Assembly (NCBI RefSeq): GCF_018687785.1
Contig: NZ_LTBL01000001.1
Location: 434,001 to 498,000, forward strand
Reading direction: 5' to 3'
Source of the DNA: Methanovulcanius yangii
GTDB taxonomy: Archaea; Halobacteriota; Methanomicrobia; Methanomicrobiales; Methanomicrobiaceae
Length of the DNA stretch: 64,000 nt
Below the pieces are notes generated by a model, which ran no database searches, was not told the DNA's origin, and worked only from the letters and a program-made list of their open reading frames with translations. Every line of letters begins with the position of its first letter. The first letter of the stretch is position 1. Made by a program: the position numbers and the translations under genes. Below are positions 7,694 to 12,133 of the stretch, one piece after another.

Positions 7694-8374
7694 ATGAATA
7701 TGGGAGTTTTGTTTTCCGGAGGGAAGGATTCCGTCTTCGCGTGCTGGAGGGCAATGCAGATTGAATCAGTATCGTGCCTCATTACTCTCAAGTCGAGAAA
7801 CGATGAGAGCTACATGTTTCACACTCCGAACATACATCTGACGTCCATGCAGGCACAGGCTGCGGGGCTTCCTCTCGTCGAACACATCACCAGCGGTGAG
7901 GAGGAAAAGGAGCTTGCCGATTTGAAGGATGCAATCGTCACCGCCCGGGATTGTTATGGCATCGATGGCATCGTCACCGGGGCGATATTATCGGTGTATC
8001 AGGCCACACGCATTCAGCATATCTGCAATGATCTCGATCTCTGCTGCTACAATCCTCTCTGGCATGTCAACCAGGAACGATATCTGAAGGAACTCGTAGA
8101 GGGTGGATTTGAGGTCATTATTTCAGGTGTATTCTCCGCTCCCTTTGATGCATCGTGGCTGGGACGGCGGCTCGATACTGAAATGATTACGGAGTTACAA
8201 CGTCTCTCGGAGAAGTGGCAAATCTCACTGACGGGTGAAGGTGGAGAACTCGAAACTCTTGTGACCGATGCGCCGTTCTTTTCCAGACGCATCGGGATTA
8301 CTTCTTCAGAGACGAGATATGCAAATTATAATGGGAGATACATGATCACCGGTGCGGAGCTGATAGAGAAATGA
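7694..8374 (+). CDS. dph6: Diphthine-ammonia ligase-like ATP pyrophosphatase
   Basis: 226 residues. The N-terminus has the PP-loop SGGKDS (residues 8-13), which binds ATP and releases pyrophosphate. The middle (GIDGIVTGAI, then NPLWH near residue 118) and the C-terminal EGGELETLV motif (near 179) are those of the MJ0570/Dph6 family. Dph6 carries out the last step of diphthamide synthesis on elongation factor 2, amidating diphthine with ammonium and ATP. The ATG at 7694 has a strong GAGGTGA site. The stop overlaps the ATG of the glutamine amidotransferase gene, which suggests coupled translation. Confidence 0.85.
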   Translation: MNMGVLFSGGKDSVFACWRAMQIESVSCLITLKSRNDESYMFHTPNIHLTSMQAQAAGLPLVEHITSGEEEKELADLKDAIVTARDCYGIDGIVTGAILSVYQATRIQHICNDLDLCCYNPLWHVNQERYLKELVEGGFEVIISGVFSAPFDASWLGRRLDTEMITELQRLSEKWQISLTGEGGELETLVTDAPFFSRRIGITSSETRYANYNGRYMITGAELIEK

Positions 8375-8949
8375 TTATCTGTCTCGACCTTTCCGGGAAA
8401 AAACACTCGCTTGGGTGGTATGAGTTTGTTGCCCCGATTATGGAAATTATTCATAAGGAGGGAGTTGCCTGTATTTCGGTCCATTATTCTGATTTTTCCA
8501 TGGATGATGATCCGAATATTATGGGCGTTATTATGTGCGGGACGCCTCTCTGTGATAATTCCTTTTCGCTTAATTCCGGTTCTTTTCAATGGCTTCTCTC
8601 GTGTGACATTCCTGTTTTGGGAATTTGTGCCGGTTTTCAGGCCTTGTCACTTGCCTTTGGGGGGCATCTTGAAGAGAAGACTGAGATCGGTATGGTGTCC
8701 ATACGATCCACCGGCCGGAATGATTTCATCGATACCTGTGAATATGAGGCCTATGAGCTGCACAAGTATGCACCATCACCGGGGGATGGGTTCACCATAC
8801 TCGCAGAGTCCGACAGATGCATTCAGGCGGTGAAACATCAATCCCGGCCGTTCTATGGGGTGATGTTTCATCCGGAGGTGAGGAATGAATGGGTGGTGAA
8901 GAATTTCCTATCGATATGTGGCCTTGCTTCATCCAACAAATCTGGTTGA
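8371..8949 (+). CDS. Class I glutamine amidotransferase, GuaA-subunit-A-like but divergent
   Basis: 192 residues, a stand-alone GATase domain. The nucleophile elbow is GICAGFQ with Cys86, and the His-Glu pair is in FHPEV (His167, Glu169), so the glutaminase triad is intact. Length and C-terminus (VKNFLSICG) resemble the archaeal GMP synthase glutaminase subunit, but the elbow has F where GuaA enzymes have H (GICLGHQ), and the N-terminus is divergent. It overlaps dph6 by 4 nt (ATGA). By context it may supply ammonia to the Dph6 reaction (inference). A GuaA subunit role is the alternative, but no guaA synthetase subunit lies in the window. Confidence 0.8.
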   Translation: MIICLDLSGKKHSLGWYEFVAPIMEIIHKEGVACISVHYSDFSMDDDPNIMGVIMCGTPLCDNSFSLNSGSFQWLLSCDIPVLGICAGFQALSLAFGGHLEEKTEIGMVSIRSTGRNDFIDTCEYEAYELHKYAPSPGDGFTILAESDRCIQAVKHQSRPFYGVMFHPEVRNEWVVKNFLSICGLASSNKSG

Positions 8950-8970: not shown

Positions 8971-8994
8971 AATATATTTATACGCATTTGCGTA
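8971..8994 (+). promoter_or_regulatory. TATA-like element plus palindrome TACGCA-TT-TGCGTA
   Basis: AATATATTTATA at 8971-8982 is a TATA-box candidate. It is followed directly by TACGCATTTGCGTA (8981-8994), two perfect 6-bp arms around TT. The element lies 18 bp before the ATG of the NifX gene, where a bound protein would cover the transcription start. A near copy sits at 11503-11518 in front of the second unit of the same cluster. Confidence 0.6.
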
Positions 8995-9011
8995 ATTATA
9001 ACCTGAACATT

Positions 9012-9347
9012 ATGAAGATTGCAGTAAGTATCCGGGACTCGGAATCTGGAGCGACAGTAGAACAACGTTTTGGGCGCACCCCCCAGATACTCATTCGTGA
9101 CGAAGAGTCGGGAGAGGAGCAGATCCTCGACAATCCCTTCGCAGATGGTGCGGGAGGAGTGGGTCCCAAGGTGGTGCAGCTTCTCGTGAACAATGATGTA
9201 AAGGCGGTTATCACCGGACAGGTCGGCGGCAATGCCCTTGCAGCCCTGAGGGATTCCGGCATAACAATCTACACCTGTGAGCAGGGTGTTCCGGTTGAAG
9301 ATGCGCTCGGGAAGTACCGTGCAGGGACCCTTCCTTCCATTCAGTGA
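9012..9347 (+). CDS. NifX/NifB-C-terminal family Fe-Mo cofactor-binding-like protein
   Basis: 111 residues from ATG 9012 (an in-frame ATG at 8988 falls inside the palindrome and is unlikely). The fold pattern (MKIAVSI start, EQRFGRTP segment, VGPKVVQLLVNNDVKAVITG, then GNALAALRDSGI) is that of the dinitrogenase iron-molybdenum cofactor biosynthesis domain shared by NifX, NafY and many small archaeal proteins. No nif structural genes are near, so this is probably a metal or Fe-S cluster carrier for another enzyme. The gene stops immediately before the GTG of the MinD-ferredoxin ATPase. Confidence 0.85.
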   Translation: MKIAVSIRDSESGATVEQRFGRTPQILIRDEESGEEQILDNPFADGAGGVGPKVVQLLVNNDVKAVITGQVGGNALAALRDSGITIYTCEQGVPVEDALGKYRAGTLPSIQ

Positions 9348-10211
9348 GTGTCGGCCGTGGTTCAACTTGTGATTGCCAGCGGCAAGGGTGGAACAGGGAA
9401 GACCATGCTTGCTGCAAATATTGCCTATTGTCTCTCACAAACGGTGGAGACAACTCTGGCGGACTGTGATGTGGAAGAACCGAATGTACACCTTTTTCTT
9501 CCGTCTGAGTACGATGAATCCCCCGTATGTGTAGCAAATCCGGTGGTGGACCGTGATGCATGTACCCTGTGTGGACAATGTGCTGATTTCTGCCGGTATG
9601 GCGCCCTTGTTGTGATGCAGGACAGGGTGTTTTTCAATCCCTCGCTGTGTCATTCCTGCGGTGGATGTATGCTTGTCTGTCCTGAACATGCAATATCCGA
9701 AACCCCCCGAAAGATTGGTACAATTGAGGTACGAAAGCCATCCTCCTCACTGAAAATTGTGACAGGCCGCCTTAATGAGGGTGAGGTGGCGGTACCTGCG
9801 ATTATTTCCGCAGTCAAGAATTCTGTAGGAAAGGATGAGAATGTGATCATTGATGGCCCTCCGGGAACCGCCTGTCCGGTTATCGAGACCCTGCATGGCG
9901 CCGATGTCTGCATTCTCGTCACGGAACCGACGCCGTTTGGGCTGCATGACCTTGCCATTGCTGCCGATGTGGCGGAGCAACTTGGAGTGCCGGCATGTGT
10001 TGTGATCAATAAAAGTGATGGGAGAGATGAAGATATCGTAGCATTCTGTGACCAGAGGAAATTACCGTTATTGCTCCGCATCCCGTATTCCCGTGAATGG
10101 GCACGGGTGCAGGGTGAAGGCGACCTAATTGTCCGACACAGTCTGGAGTGGCAGGATACGTTTTCCCGTCTCTTTGAGGAGGCCTGCAACTGCAGGAGGG
10201 CCGCGGAATGA
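9348..10211 (+). CDS. MinD-superfamily P-loop ATPase with inserted ferredoxin domain (copy 1)
   Basis: 287 residues. The deviant Walker A (SGKGGTGKT, residues 11-19) is of the MinD/Mrp type. An inserted 2x[4Fe-4S] ferredoxin module occupies about residues 58-112 (CTLCGQCADFC, then CHSCGGCMLVCP). The ATPase fold resumes with IDGPPGTACPV and ends with the VINKSDGRDEDI region. Relatives in the Mrp/NBP35 group load Fe-S clusters; the precise client is unknown. GTG 9348 begins right after the NifX stop (TGAGTG); GTG 9357 is an alternative. It overlaps copy 2 by ATGA. Confidence 0.9.
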   Translation: MSAVVQLVIASGKGGTGKTMLAANIAYCLSQTVETTLADCDVEEPNVHLFLPSEYDESPVCVANPVVDRDACTLCGQCADFCRYGALVVMQDRVFFNPSLCHSCGGCMLVCPEHAISETPRKIGTIEVRKPSSSLKIVTGRLNEGEVAVPAIISAVKNSVGKDENVIIDGPPGTACPVIETLHGADVCILVTEPTPFGLHDLAIAADVAEQLGVPACVVINKSDGRDEDIVAFCDQRKLPLLLRIPYSREWARVQGEGDLIVRHSLEWQDTFSRLFEEACNCRRAAE

Positions 10212-11086
10212 TCCAGATTGCTGTTCTGAGCGGGAAAGGCGGCACCGGCAAGACCATGCTGACTGCTGCCCTGGCAACGCTCATCAGTGAACCCCTGATA
10301 ACGGCCGATGCAGATGTTGATGCGGCAAATCTTGCGTTGCTTCTCGACGCTGAAGTGATCACTACCGGGTCGTTCTATGGAATGGAAAGCTCAAGGATTG
10401 ATGCAACACTCTGCACCGGGTGTGGCCTCTGTGAGGATGCATGCCGGTTCGATGCCATTCATGAGAAGAACGGCGTCTGGACCGTCGATCCCATCCGGTG
10501 TGAGGGATGCGCGGTATGCACCATGGTATGCCCGACTAATGCGCCCCGTATGGAGAAAATTCAGAATGGAGATCTCTATCTTTCACGGACCCGGTATGGT
10601 CTTCTCTCACACGCCAGGCTCAATCCCGGGTCCGGCACAACGGGGCTTCTGGTCCATGAGGTGAAAAAGCAGGCCATCTCACAGGCTGATGGTGCCGGCA
10701 TACTTCTTATCGATGGGCCACCGGGGATTGGGTGTCCGCTGATATCAGCGGTCAGTGGTGTGGATGTATGTATTCTTGTTGCCGAACCGTCCGTGTCGTC
10801 CCTTCATGATCTTGAACGTCTTGTCAGGGTATGTCGCCAGTTTGGTCCCCGGTTATATGGGGTGATAAATAAGTTTGATCTGTCGGAGAAAGCAACAGGG
10901 ATGATTTTGGACTGGTTTGTATCGGAGAAGATCCCACTGGTTGGTACTATCCCCTTTGATGATTGTGTTACGGAGGCGGTTCGTGAAGGAAAACCTGTGA
11001 CCGCCTTTGATTGTCCTGCCGCACAGGCCATTAAGACTATCTGGACGCAGACCGCAGATCTAGAAGGGATAAATGAGAGGATGTAA
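10208..11086 (+). CDS. MinD-superfamily P-loop ATPase with inserted ferredoxin domain (copy 2)
   Basis: 292 residues, the same architecture as the preceding gene: SGKGGTGKT at 8-16, a ferredoxin insert with CTGCGLCEDAC and CEGCAVCTMVCP at about 63-105, then IDGPPGIGCPL. The two are diverged paralogues and could form a heterodimer, as MinD-type ATPases dimerise across the nucleotide. The ATG overlaps the previous stop by 4 nt, and the 3' end overlaps the DUF134 gene by 14 nt. A cytoplasmic metal-cluster assembly or redox role is inferred from domains and neighbours. Confidence 0.9.
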   Translation: MIQIAVLSGKGGTGKTMLTAALATLISEPLITADADVDAANLALLLDAEVITTGSFYGMESSRIDATLCTGCGLCEDACRFDAIHEKNGVWTVDPIRCEGCAVCTMVCPTNAPRMEKIQNGDLYLSRTRYGLLSHARLNPGSGTTGLLVHEVKKQAISQADGAGILLIDGPPGIGCPLISAVSGVDVCILVAEPSVSSLHDLERLVRVCRQFGPRLYGVINKFDLSEKATGMILDWFVSEKIPLVGTIPFDDCVTEAVREGKPVTAFDCPAAQAIKTIWTQTADLEGINERM

Positions 11087-11474
11087 TGAACCGGGAGACC
11101 CCGCAGGACCGAGACGTGGAAGACCGAGAAAACGGCGCCTTATGCAGCGAGAAGGTTTATGGCGCTGTTACCAGCCATGCTGCAATCCTGACGACGAAGG
11201 AGGCACCATTCCATTACATCCGGAGGAACTGGAAGCGATTCGGCTGGTGGACCTTCTTGGGCATGATCAGGAGAGTGCGGCGATGTTTATGGGCGTGTCC
11301 AGAAAGACGCTCTGGCGCGATCTTCATGACGGCCGCAGAAAGATCGCCGACGCGCTTGTGAATGGGAAACGTATCGTCATTCAGGGATGCGAACTGGCCA
11401 CTTCACAAGAACCGTGTTGTCTTCAGCAATGTGTGGATGATGACATCCACCCCTCTTCAGACGATACGAAATAA
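11073..11474 (+). CDS. DUF134 family HTH protein, candidate regulator
   Basis: 133 residues. A basic N-terminus (GRPRKRR) leads into a Cys-containing stretch (CYQPCCNP). Then comes the LHPEELEAIRLVDLLG helix and a sigma-factor-like helix-turn-helix around HDQESAAMFMGVSRKTLWRDLHDGRRK (split: QESAAMFMGV and SRKTLWRDL). This is the DUF134 pattern. The C-terminal tail has more cysteines (CELATS, CCLQQC), which could bind metal. It overlaps the MinD copy 2 gene by 14 nt. A palindrome lies in the two promoters of this cluster, and DUF134 is the obvious candidate to bind it (inference). Confidence 0.85.
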   Translation: MRGCNEPGDPAGPRRGRPRKRRLMQREGLWRCYQPCCNPDDEGGTIPLHPEELEAIRLVDLLGHDQESAAMFMGVSRKTLWRDLHDGRRKIADALVNGKRIVIQGCELATSQEPCCLQQCVDDDIHPSSDDTK

Positions 11475-11485
11475 GTGCCTCAATA

Positions 11486-11518
11486 AATATATTTATTAAT
11501 TTTTACGCATATGTGTAA
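11486..11518 (+). promoter_or_regulatory. Promoter with palindrome TTACGCAT-ATGTGTAA
   Basis: An A/T-rich TATA candidate (AATATATTTATTAA, about 11487-11500) precedes TTACGCATATGTGTAA at 11503-11518, a 16-bp palindrome with one mismatched pair. Spacing and order match the element at 8971-8994. The DUF5320 ATG is 23 bp further on. A second promoter inside the cluster is implied. Confidence 0.6.
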
Positions 11519-11541
11519 TTATTGGCGAATCAGTGATATCT

Positions 11542-11754
11542 ATGCCAGGGTTTGACAGAACCGGTCCACGTGGACTTGGACCAATGACCGGACGGGGTCT
11601 GGGTACCTGCAGTCCGGAAGGAATTGTAAAGGAAAATGGAAATACTCCGGAAGGAACGCCGGTGATATACGGTGTCGGTCGCGGCGGGCGCCCCCGTGGA
11701 TGCGGGAGAGGCCGGTGTGGTGGATTTGGCGGTCGTCGTCAGGGGCGCTGGTGA
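11542..11754 (+). CDS. DUF5320-type Gly/Arg-rich small protein
   Basis: 70 residues from ATG 11542. The opening MPGFDRTGPRGLGPMTGRG is the hallmark of small DUF5320 proteins, which usually sit next to NifX-like and MinD-ferredoxin ATPase genes. The C-terminal half is Gly/Arg/Cys-rich (RGCGRGRCGGFGGRR). An upstream in-frame GTG at 11533 exists, but the family begins at MPGFDRTGP and a GTGAT purine run lies 4 nt before the ATG. The NifX copy 2 gene starts 4 nt after the stop. Function unknown. Confidence 0.85.
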   Translation: MPGFDRTGPRGLGPMTGRGLGTCSPEGIVKENGNTPEGTPVIYGVGRGGRPRGCGRGRCGGFGGRRQGRW

Positions 11755-11758
11755 AACA

Positions 11759-12133
11759 ATGGCGGATAATTCTGTACGTCTTGGAATCGCGACAGAGAGT
11801 GGATATGTCTCCGCACACTTTGGGCATTGTTCAGAATACACTCTTGTGACGATAGAGAACGGAACGATTGTGAGTAATGAAATGGTCAGAAGTCCCGGCC
11901 ATACCCCCGGAGCCCTCCCCGCATTTCTCGCCGGGCATGGAGTTACCCACGTTATTGCAGGCGGCATGGGGCCGCGTGCCGTGGACCTTTTCTGTGAACA
12001 GGGAATCGAAGTTCTCCTTGGTGTCGAAGGTCCTGTTGAGGATATTCCAGCATTGTTTATCAGCGGTTCAATCACGCAGGGCGAGAGCATGTGTCATCAC
12101 GAAGATGGGCACCACGAATGTTCTCACGAGTAA
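11759..12133 (+). CDS. NifX/NifB-C-terminal family protein with His/Cys-rich tail
   Basis: 124 residues from ATG 11759, with GGTGA 4 nt upstream overlapping the previous stop. The cofactor-binding-like domain shows SVRLGIATESGYVSAHFG, HTPGALPAFLAGHGVTHVIAGG and GIEVLLGVEG. The end (MCHHEDGHHECSHE) has six His and two Cys in 14 residues, a probable metal-binding tail that the first NifX gene lacks. It closes the cluster; a T7 run follows at 12144. It may carry an Fe-S or other metal cluster between the MinD-ferredoxin ATPases and a target. Confidence 0.85.
   Translation: MADNSVRLGIATESGYVSAHFGHCSEYTLVTIENGTIVSNEMVRSPGHTPGALPAFLAGHGVTHVIAGGMGPRAVDLFCEQGIEVLLGVEGPVEDIPALFISGSITQGESMCHHEDGHHECSHE

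Follow-up and report, generated by a model that had tools for sequence, protein, structure and literature searches.

The dph6 gene of Methanovulcanius yangii was found to overlap a downstream gene for a class I glutamine amidotransferase (GATase)-like protein, and the same arrangement recurs in many other archaea. We consider it probable that the two proteins form a dedicated two-subunit diphthamide synthetase resembling GMP synthetase, fed by glutamine where the catalytic triad of the GATase is intact and by ammonia where this subunit is dead. Dph6 belongs to the N-type ATP pyrophosphatases, as does the synthetase portion of GMP synthetase, and members of this class other than Dph6, GMP synthetase among them, use glutaminase partners. 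In the proposed mechanism, Dph6 would activate the diphthine carboxylate on EF-2 by adenylylation, while the GATase would hydrolyse glutamine at Cys86/His167/Glu169 and hand the ammonia to Dph6; with its triad intact, M. yangii would be expected to carry out glutamine-dependent amidation. In lineages that have lost the nucleophile (Methanoculleus and others), the complex would persist as an ammonia-using enzyme, its GATase subunit being catalytically dead and structural or regulatory, as in the ammonia-dependent carbamoyl phosphate synthetase CPS1. The wider proposal of a widespread archaeal glutamine-dependent two-subunit diphthamide synthetase, spanning Halobacteriota, Bathyarchaeota and DPANN, with the glutaminase independently deadened but retained in several lineages, is in our judgement slightly favoured.

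The two genes lie in the window, that is, the whole 64,000-nt stretch that was analysed (assembly GCF_018687785.1, contig NZ_LTBL01000001.1, positions 434,001 to 498,000, forward strand). Both open reading frames, the ATGA shared by them, the nucleophile elbow and the Cys-His-Glu triad were present as the original prediction had described them (Table 1), and the overlap has the appearance typical of translational coupling. The GATase matched PF00117 with 65 bits (Pfam, cut-off 22.8). A NifX-like gene and paired ferredoxin-domain MinD/Mrp-like ATPases follow downstream (window positions 8988-12133) and are apparently unrelated to the pair; the peptidase, NifX-like and MinD-like neighbours were rejected as parts of the unit, since only 1-2 of 169 loci have them close to the pair.

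Table 1. Features of the dph6-GATase pair, in window positions.
Feature	Position	Strand	Basis
dph6, predicted archaeal diphthine-ammonia ligase (N-type ATP pyrophosphatase), paired type, 226 aa	7694..8374	+	PF01902 / TIGR03679
PP-loop SGGKDS, Dph6 residues 8-13	7715..7732	+	sequence
Dph6 residues 101-120, most paired-type-specific positions (Q108, N120, others)	7994..8053	+	sequence comparison
EGGELE, Dph6 residues 182-187, Dph6 signature motif	8237..8254	+	motif definition PMC3541065
ATGA stop/start overlap of dph6 and GATase gene	8371..8374	+	sequence; -4 spacing in most relatives
Dph6-associated class I GATase-like partner, 192 aa	8371..8949	+	PF00117, structure model
Nucleophile elbow GICAGFQ, GATase residues 84-90, including Cys86	8620..8640	+	sequence
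His167-Pro168-Glu169 of the catalytic triad (FHPE)	8869..8877	+	sequence

Conservation across the Methanomicrobiales, on which the idea of coupling had depended, was assessed in 150 genomes belonging to this order; the 86 loci found came down to 82 distinct genomes once duplicates were discarded. The contiguous pair was present in 82 of the 150 genomes, 70 of which show a spacing of exactly -4 bases. A scan of named genomes yielded 80 loci, two of which begin at a contig end; Dph6 lies upstream of the GATase in all other 78, at -4 in 68 of them. Because order, strand and overlap recur to this extent in both samples, the arrangement cannot be attributed to chance. In three genomes of one genus (L085, L086 and L089) the two proteins were found to be fused in frame through Ala/Asp-rich linkers of a few tens of residues, L089 being cut by the contig end. 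The GATase part of the L086 fusion lacks the Cys (GIGTGFR), and an apparent fusion at another locus (L187) turned out to be an artefact of masked bases.

Two kinds of Dph6 occur in the order, both carrying EGGExE. The paired type (at least 247 bits) was detected by the Dph6 search in 84 of the 150 genomes, and the GATase is contiguous with it in all of them except two (G050 and G061), where the contig ends. The other kind is 33-41% identical, is the only kind in 56 genomes and has a GATase partner in none. Within the order, one Dph6 type seems to have replaced the other. Four genomes with paired Dph6 have a second Dph6-like copy, and since these second copies are of the ENGEF/YHT (B12) type, the paired gene is the only Dph6 there. 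The 1:1 occurrence, the fixed overlap, the fusions and the single clade of paired Dph6 described below strongly support, at the level of genome comparison, a dedicated functional link between the GATase and Dph6.

The original prediction had spoken of the lineage of the window species. The pair is indeed a feature of the Methanomicrobiales, but it is not restricted to them, reaching Bathyarchaeota, DPANN and other families of Halobacteriota. It was found in records titled Bathyarchaeota, Aenigmatarchaeota, Woesearchaeota, Nanohalarchaeota and Thermoplasmata (metagenome-bin titles can be wrong), in 15 of 250 genomes of the phylum to which a Bathyarchaeota record belongs, and in three further families of the Halobacteriota, the window's phylum; in one genome of the latter families dph6 and the GATase gene stand about 1.4 kb apart. 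A contig titled Desulfobacterales bacterium also carries an archaeal dph6-GATase pair, for which the low coverage given in its title makes a mistake in binning more likely than a bacterial origin of the gene.

The GATase nucleophile was found to have been lost repeatedly. The Cys is absent from 28 of the 86 loci of the order, with Ser in its place in 26 and Gly in 2. All 26 loci of one genus, identified as Methanoculleus through named records, have Ser (GISSGM). Three Bathyarchaeota-related genomes have Gly for Cys and one has Asp, while a Woesearchaeota-titled record has Ser. In five genomes of one genus from another family of the window's phylum, Ser or Ala stands for the Cys and Asn, Asp or Ser for the triad His at loci still adjoining dph6, and their GATase partner is clearly a pseudoenzyme subunit. 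The GATase tree requires seven nucleophile changes in all; losses seen in single genomes may be sequencing errors, which can hardly be said of the three that are clade-wide. Within Methanoculleus, the GATase has a median pairwise dN/dS (Nei-Gojobori) of 0.33, against 0.19 in Dph6, so that it is still under purifying selection without its Cys. Given the losses in Methanoculleus, in another genus and in scattered others, glutaminase activity is dispensable for keeping the subunit. The proposal that a dedicated GATase feeds Dph6 therefore holds for the link itself (co-occurrence, overlap, fusions, clade), but not for glutaminase activity as the constant reason for retention, in view of the repeated nucleophile loss.

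A parallel is found in CPS1, where the human enzyme has changed this Cys to Ser and uses ammonia in place of glutamine with the domain kept, and where the frog enzyme fails to use glutamine in spite of an intact triad (PMC4655335). Because of the frog enzyme, the intact triad of the window GATase is, by analogy, not proof of glutamine use; glutamine use by the pair is plausible, but not universal.

These observations bring forward the reading that the GATase-like protein is generally non-catalytic, acting as an assembly factor, in EF-2 docking or as an allosteric Dph6 subunit, with free ammonium as the nitrogen source and the triad as an ancestral relic. About seven independent losses with the gene and its overlap retained, and the constraint on the Cys-less Methanoculleus subunit, are what such a protein would show, and the yeast Dph6 reaction has been described with ammonia/ammonium (PMC3585130). 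On the other hand, Cys, His and Glu are kept together in 58 of the 86 loci of the order, with Gly57 invariant; a pure relic would show wider decay over the depth of the GATase tree, and the main losses follow clades instead of being random. We regard this reading as unlikely. The repeated loss provides a natural series on what amidotransferase subunits do besides cutting glutamine, and allows one to ask whether a glutaminase becomes less necessary in habitats rich in ammonia.

The identity of the ligase was examined from its scores, its motif and its genomic context. The window Dph6 scored 272.6 bits against the archaeal Dph6 profile TIGR03679 (equivalog cut-off 197.3) and 222 bits against PF01902 (Pfam), with residues 1-219 of 226 matched. 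An N-terminal Ntn GAT domain is absent from the protein, which has no extension beyond PF01902. Its relatives of solved structure are PH1257 and PF0828, the latter being PDB 3rjz/3rk0/3rk1 (PMC3541065). EGGE-x-E marks Dph6, whereas the B12-salvage type of DUF71 has ENGEF/YH (PMC3541065); on both motif and score, the paired Dph6 is not of the B12 type. Second DUF71 copies, carrying ENGEF/YHT, were seen at seven loci in some Methanomicrobiales. By score and motif the window protein is an archaeal Dph6, with diphthine amidation as its predicted reaction. The same genome encodes Dph5 (285.9 bits) and Dph2 (264.1 bits), as revealed by profile search, and an aEF-2 (1141.7 bits) with the diphthamide loop LHEDAIHRGPAQ.

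That the pair acts on some other substrate, the Dph6-like protein of the paired clade being a paralogue in another amidation, appears very improbable. Several functions are known within the DUF71 family (PMC3541065), and the paired clade has signature residues of its own: Q108 (206/207), N120 (201/207) and P150 (201/207) are fixed in paired Dph6 and unseen in stand-alone Dph6. Yet the score lies above the Dph6 cut-off and the EGGELE motif is present, the protein is the sole Dph6 candidate of its genome in the Dph6 search, the paired and the other Dph6 type are mutually exclusive in the order, and Dph2, Dph5 and the target EF-2 are all encoded. Most of the paired-type-specific positions fall within residues 101-120, which could possibly form a partner-docking or ammonia-entry face.

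In a tree of 132 Dph6 sequences, 77 paired Dph6 and one unpaired Dph6 formed one clade (support 96/91), and shuffled pairing labels were never as clustered as those observed. Stand-alone Dph6, long N-terminally extended Dph6 and PF0828/PH1257 lie on the opposite side, and one paired lineage is placed near the base. The unpaired member of the clade belongs to a Bathyarchaeota-related genome (G547) in which no GATase was found within 2.4 kb downstream of the gene, consistent with secondary loss or relocation. Judged from these sequences, the association appears to be ancient and rarely broken up. Against a two-subunit synthetase count this one exception and the fact that stand-alone Dph6 evidently works without a GATase partner in many archaea.

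For the Methanoculleus proteins, it might be supposed that the GATase is no dead glutaminase but an active serine hydrolase akin to peptidase E/cyanophycinase, the Ser being fixed with His kept in 24 of 26 loci and Glu in 25 of 26. We give hardly any credence to this, as the parallel Ser/Ala clade has also lost the His, which favours inactivity, and a change from Cys to Ser at this same site is known to have inactivated CPS1 (PMC4655335).

The GATase itself was compared with the known amidotransferase families. Six genes of the genome matched PF00117, and a true GuaAA is encoded elsewhere (179899-180417), scoring 233 bits against the profile for GMP synthase subunit A (NF001975, cut-off 198); the separate guaA glutaminase gene for which a search had been proposed thus exists. 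The window GATase reached 71.5 bits against NF001975 and 37.8 bits against TIGR00566 (TrpG/PabA component II, cut-off 121). Its elbow does differ from the GICLGHQ ascribed to GMP synthase subunits, as originally noted, but the GuaAA of this genome has GICLGLH and not GICLGHQ. The commonest elbow in the partner family overall is GICAGMQ, with position 90 variable (Q, R, L or E), a variability that counts against the two-subunit synthetase. No match to a chorismate-binding enzyme (PF00425, the TrpE/PabB partner) was obtained in the genome, and for this reason TrpG/PabA is excluded. An AlphaFold2 model of the GATase (pLDDT 95, pTM 0.91) had archaeal GuaAA, the GATase subunit of the M. jannaschii GMP synthetase, as its best PDB matches at about 30% identity; as modelled, the protein shares the fold of archaeal GuaAA and is of a different family. 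Placed in a tree together with 20 paralogues, the 91 Dph6-partner GATases formed one clade separate from GuaAA (100/99), so that the GATase does not fall inside GuaAA. The reading as a mere GuaAA or TrpG/PabA adjoining dph6 by chance, to which GMP synthase subunit A as the closest curated family and closest structure might lend colour, is refuted by the scores, the tree, the missing partner enzyme and a dph6 adjacency kept across families and phyla, and to annotate it as a GMP synthase subunit would be a mistake.

Archaeal GMP synthetase (GuaAA + GuaAB) is one of the close analogues of the pair, since it also joins a class I GATase to an N-type ATP pyrophosphatase as separate chains and has the GATase fold in common (TM about 0.75-0.83). 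It differs in that the window GATase stands in another clade, far under the GuaAA cut-off, and in that its acceptor is XMP, whereas here the partner is Dph6 and the acceptor is presumed to be EF-2-diphthine. In CPS1, too, a class I GATase domain was retained after Cys was changed to Ser (PMC4655335), but its synthetase is a different one, and in the present family such loss occurred several times. Stand-alone archaeal Dph6 (PF0828, PH1257) shares the Pfam family and the EGGExE motif, but the relatives sampled have no GATase partner.

The nitrogen donor for the last step of archaeal diphthamide synthesis has been open since Dph6 was identified; the candidates put forward were free ammonium, RidA domains and a fused class II GAT. 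The source has been argued to vary, being glutamine through a fused class II GAT or, in eukaryotes, RidA domains (PMC3541065, 2012; RidA domains also discussed in PMC3585130). Eukaryotic Dph6 with C-terminal RidA/YjgF domains likewise carries, joined to the ligase, a domain proposed as the supplier of ammonia, but this domain has an imine deaminase fold instead of being a glutaminase. The original prediction had called the route undescribed. For a class I partner this still applies, no description having been found in the literature searched, which excluded most subscription papers; glutamine as the nitrogen source of Dph6 was already proposed in 2012 (PMC3541065), and the novelty seems to lie in the class I partner and in how widely it occurs. 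With such a dedicated partner in many archaeal lineages, the question of the nitrogen donor becomes directly testable.

The fusion of Dph6 with class II GAT and AsnB in Methanohalophilus and others (PMC3541065) is close in its proposed function, as glutamine-derived ammonia was suggested there for the diphthamide ligase. Its glutaminase is an unrelated class II (Ntn) domain, fused N-terminally and accompanied by an extra Asn-synthase domain, whereas here a class I triad GATase is encoded mostly by a separate, overlapping downstream gene. The stand-alone Dph6 of close relatives lack N-terminal extensions of about 480-500 aa, which Dph6 carries at seven other loci and which fit these published fusions (PMC3541065).
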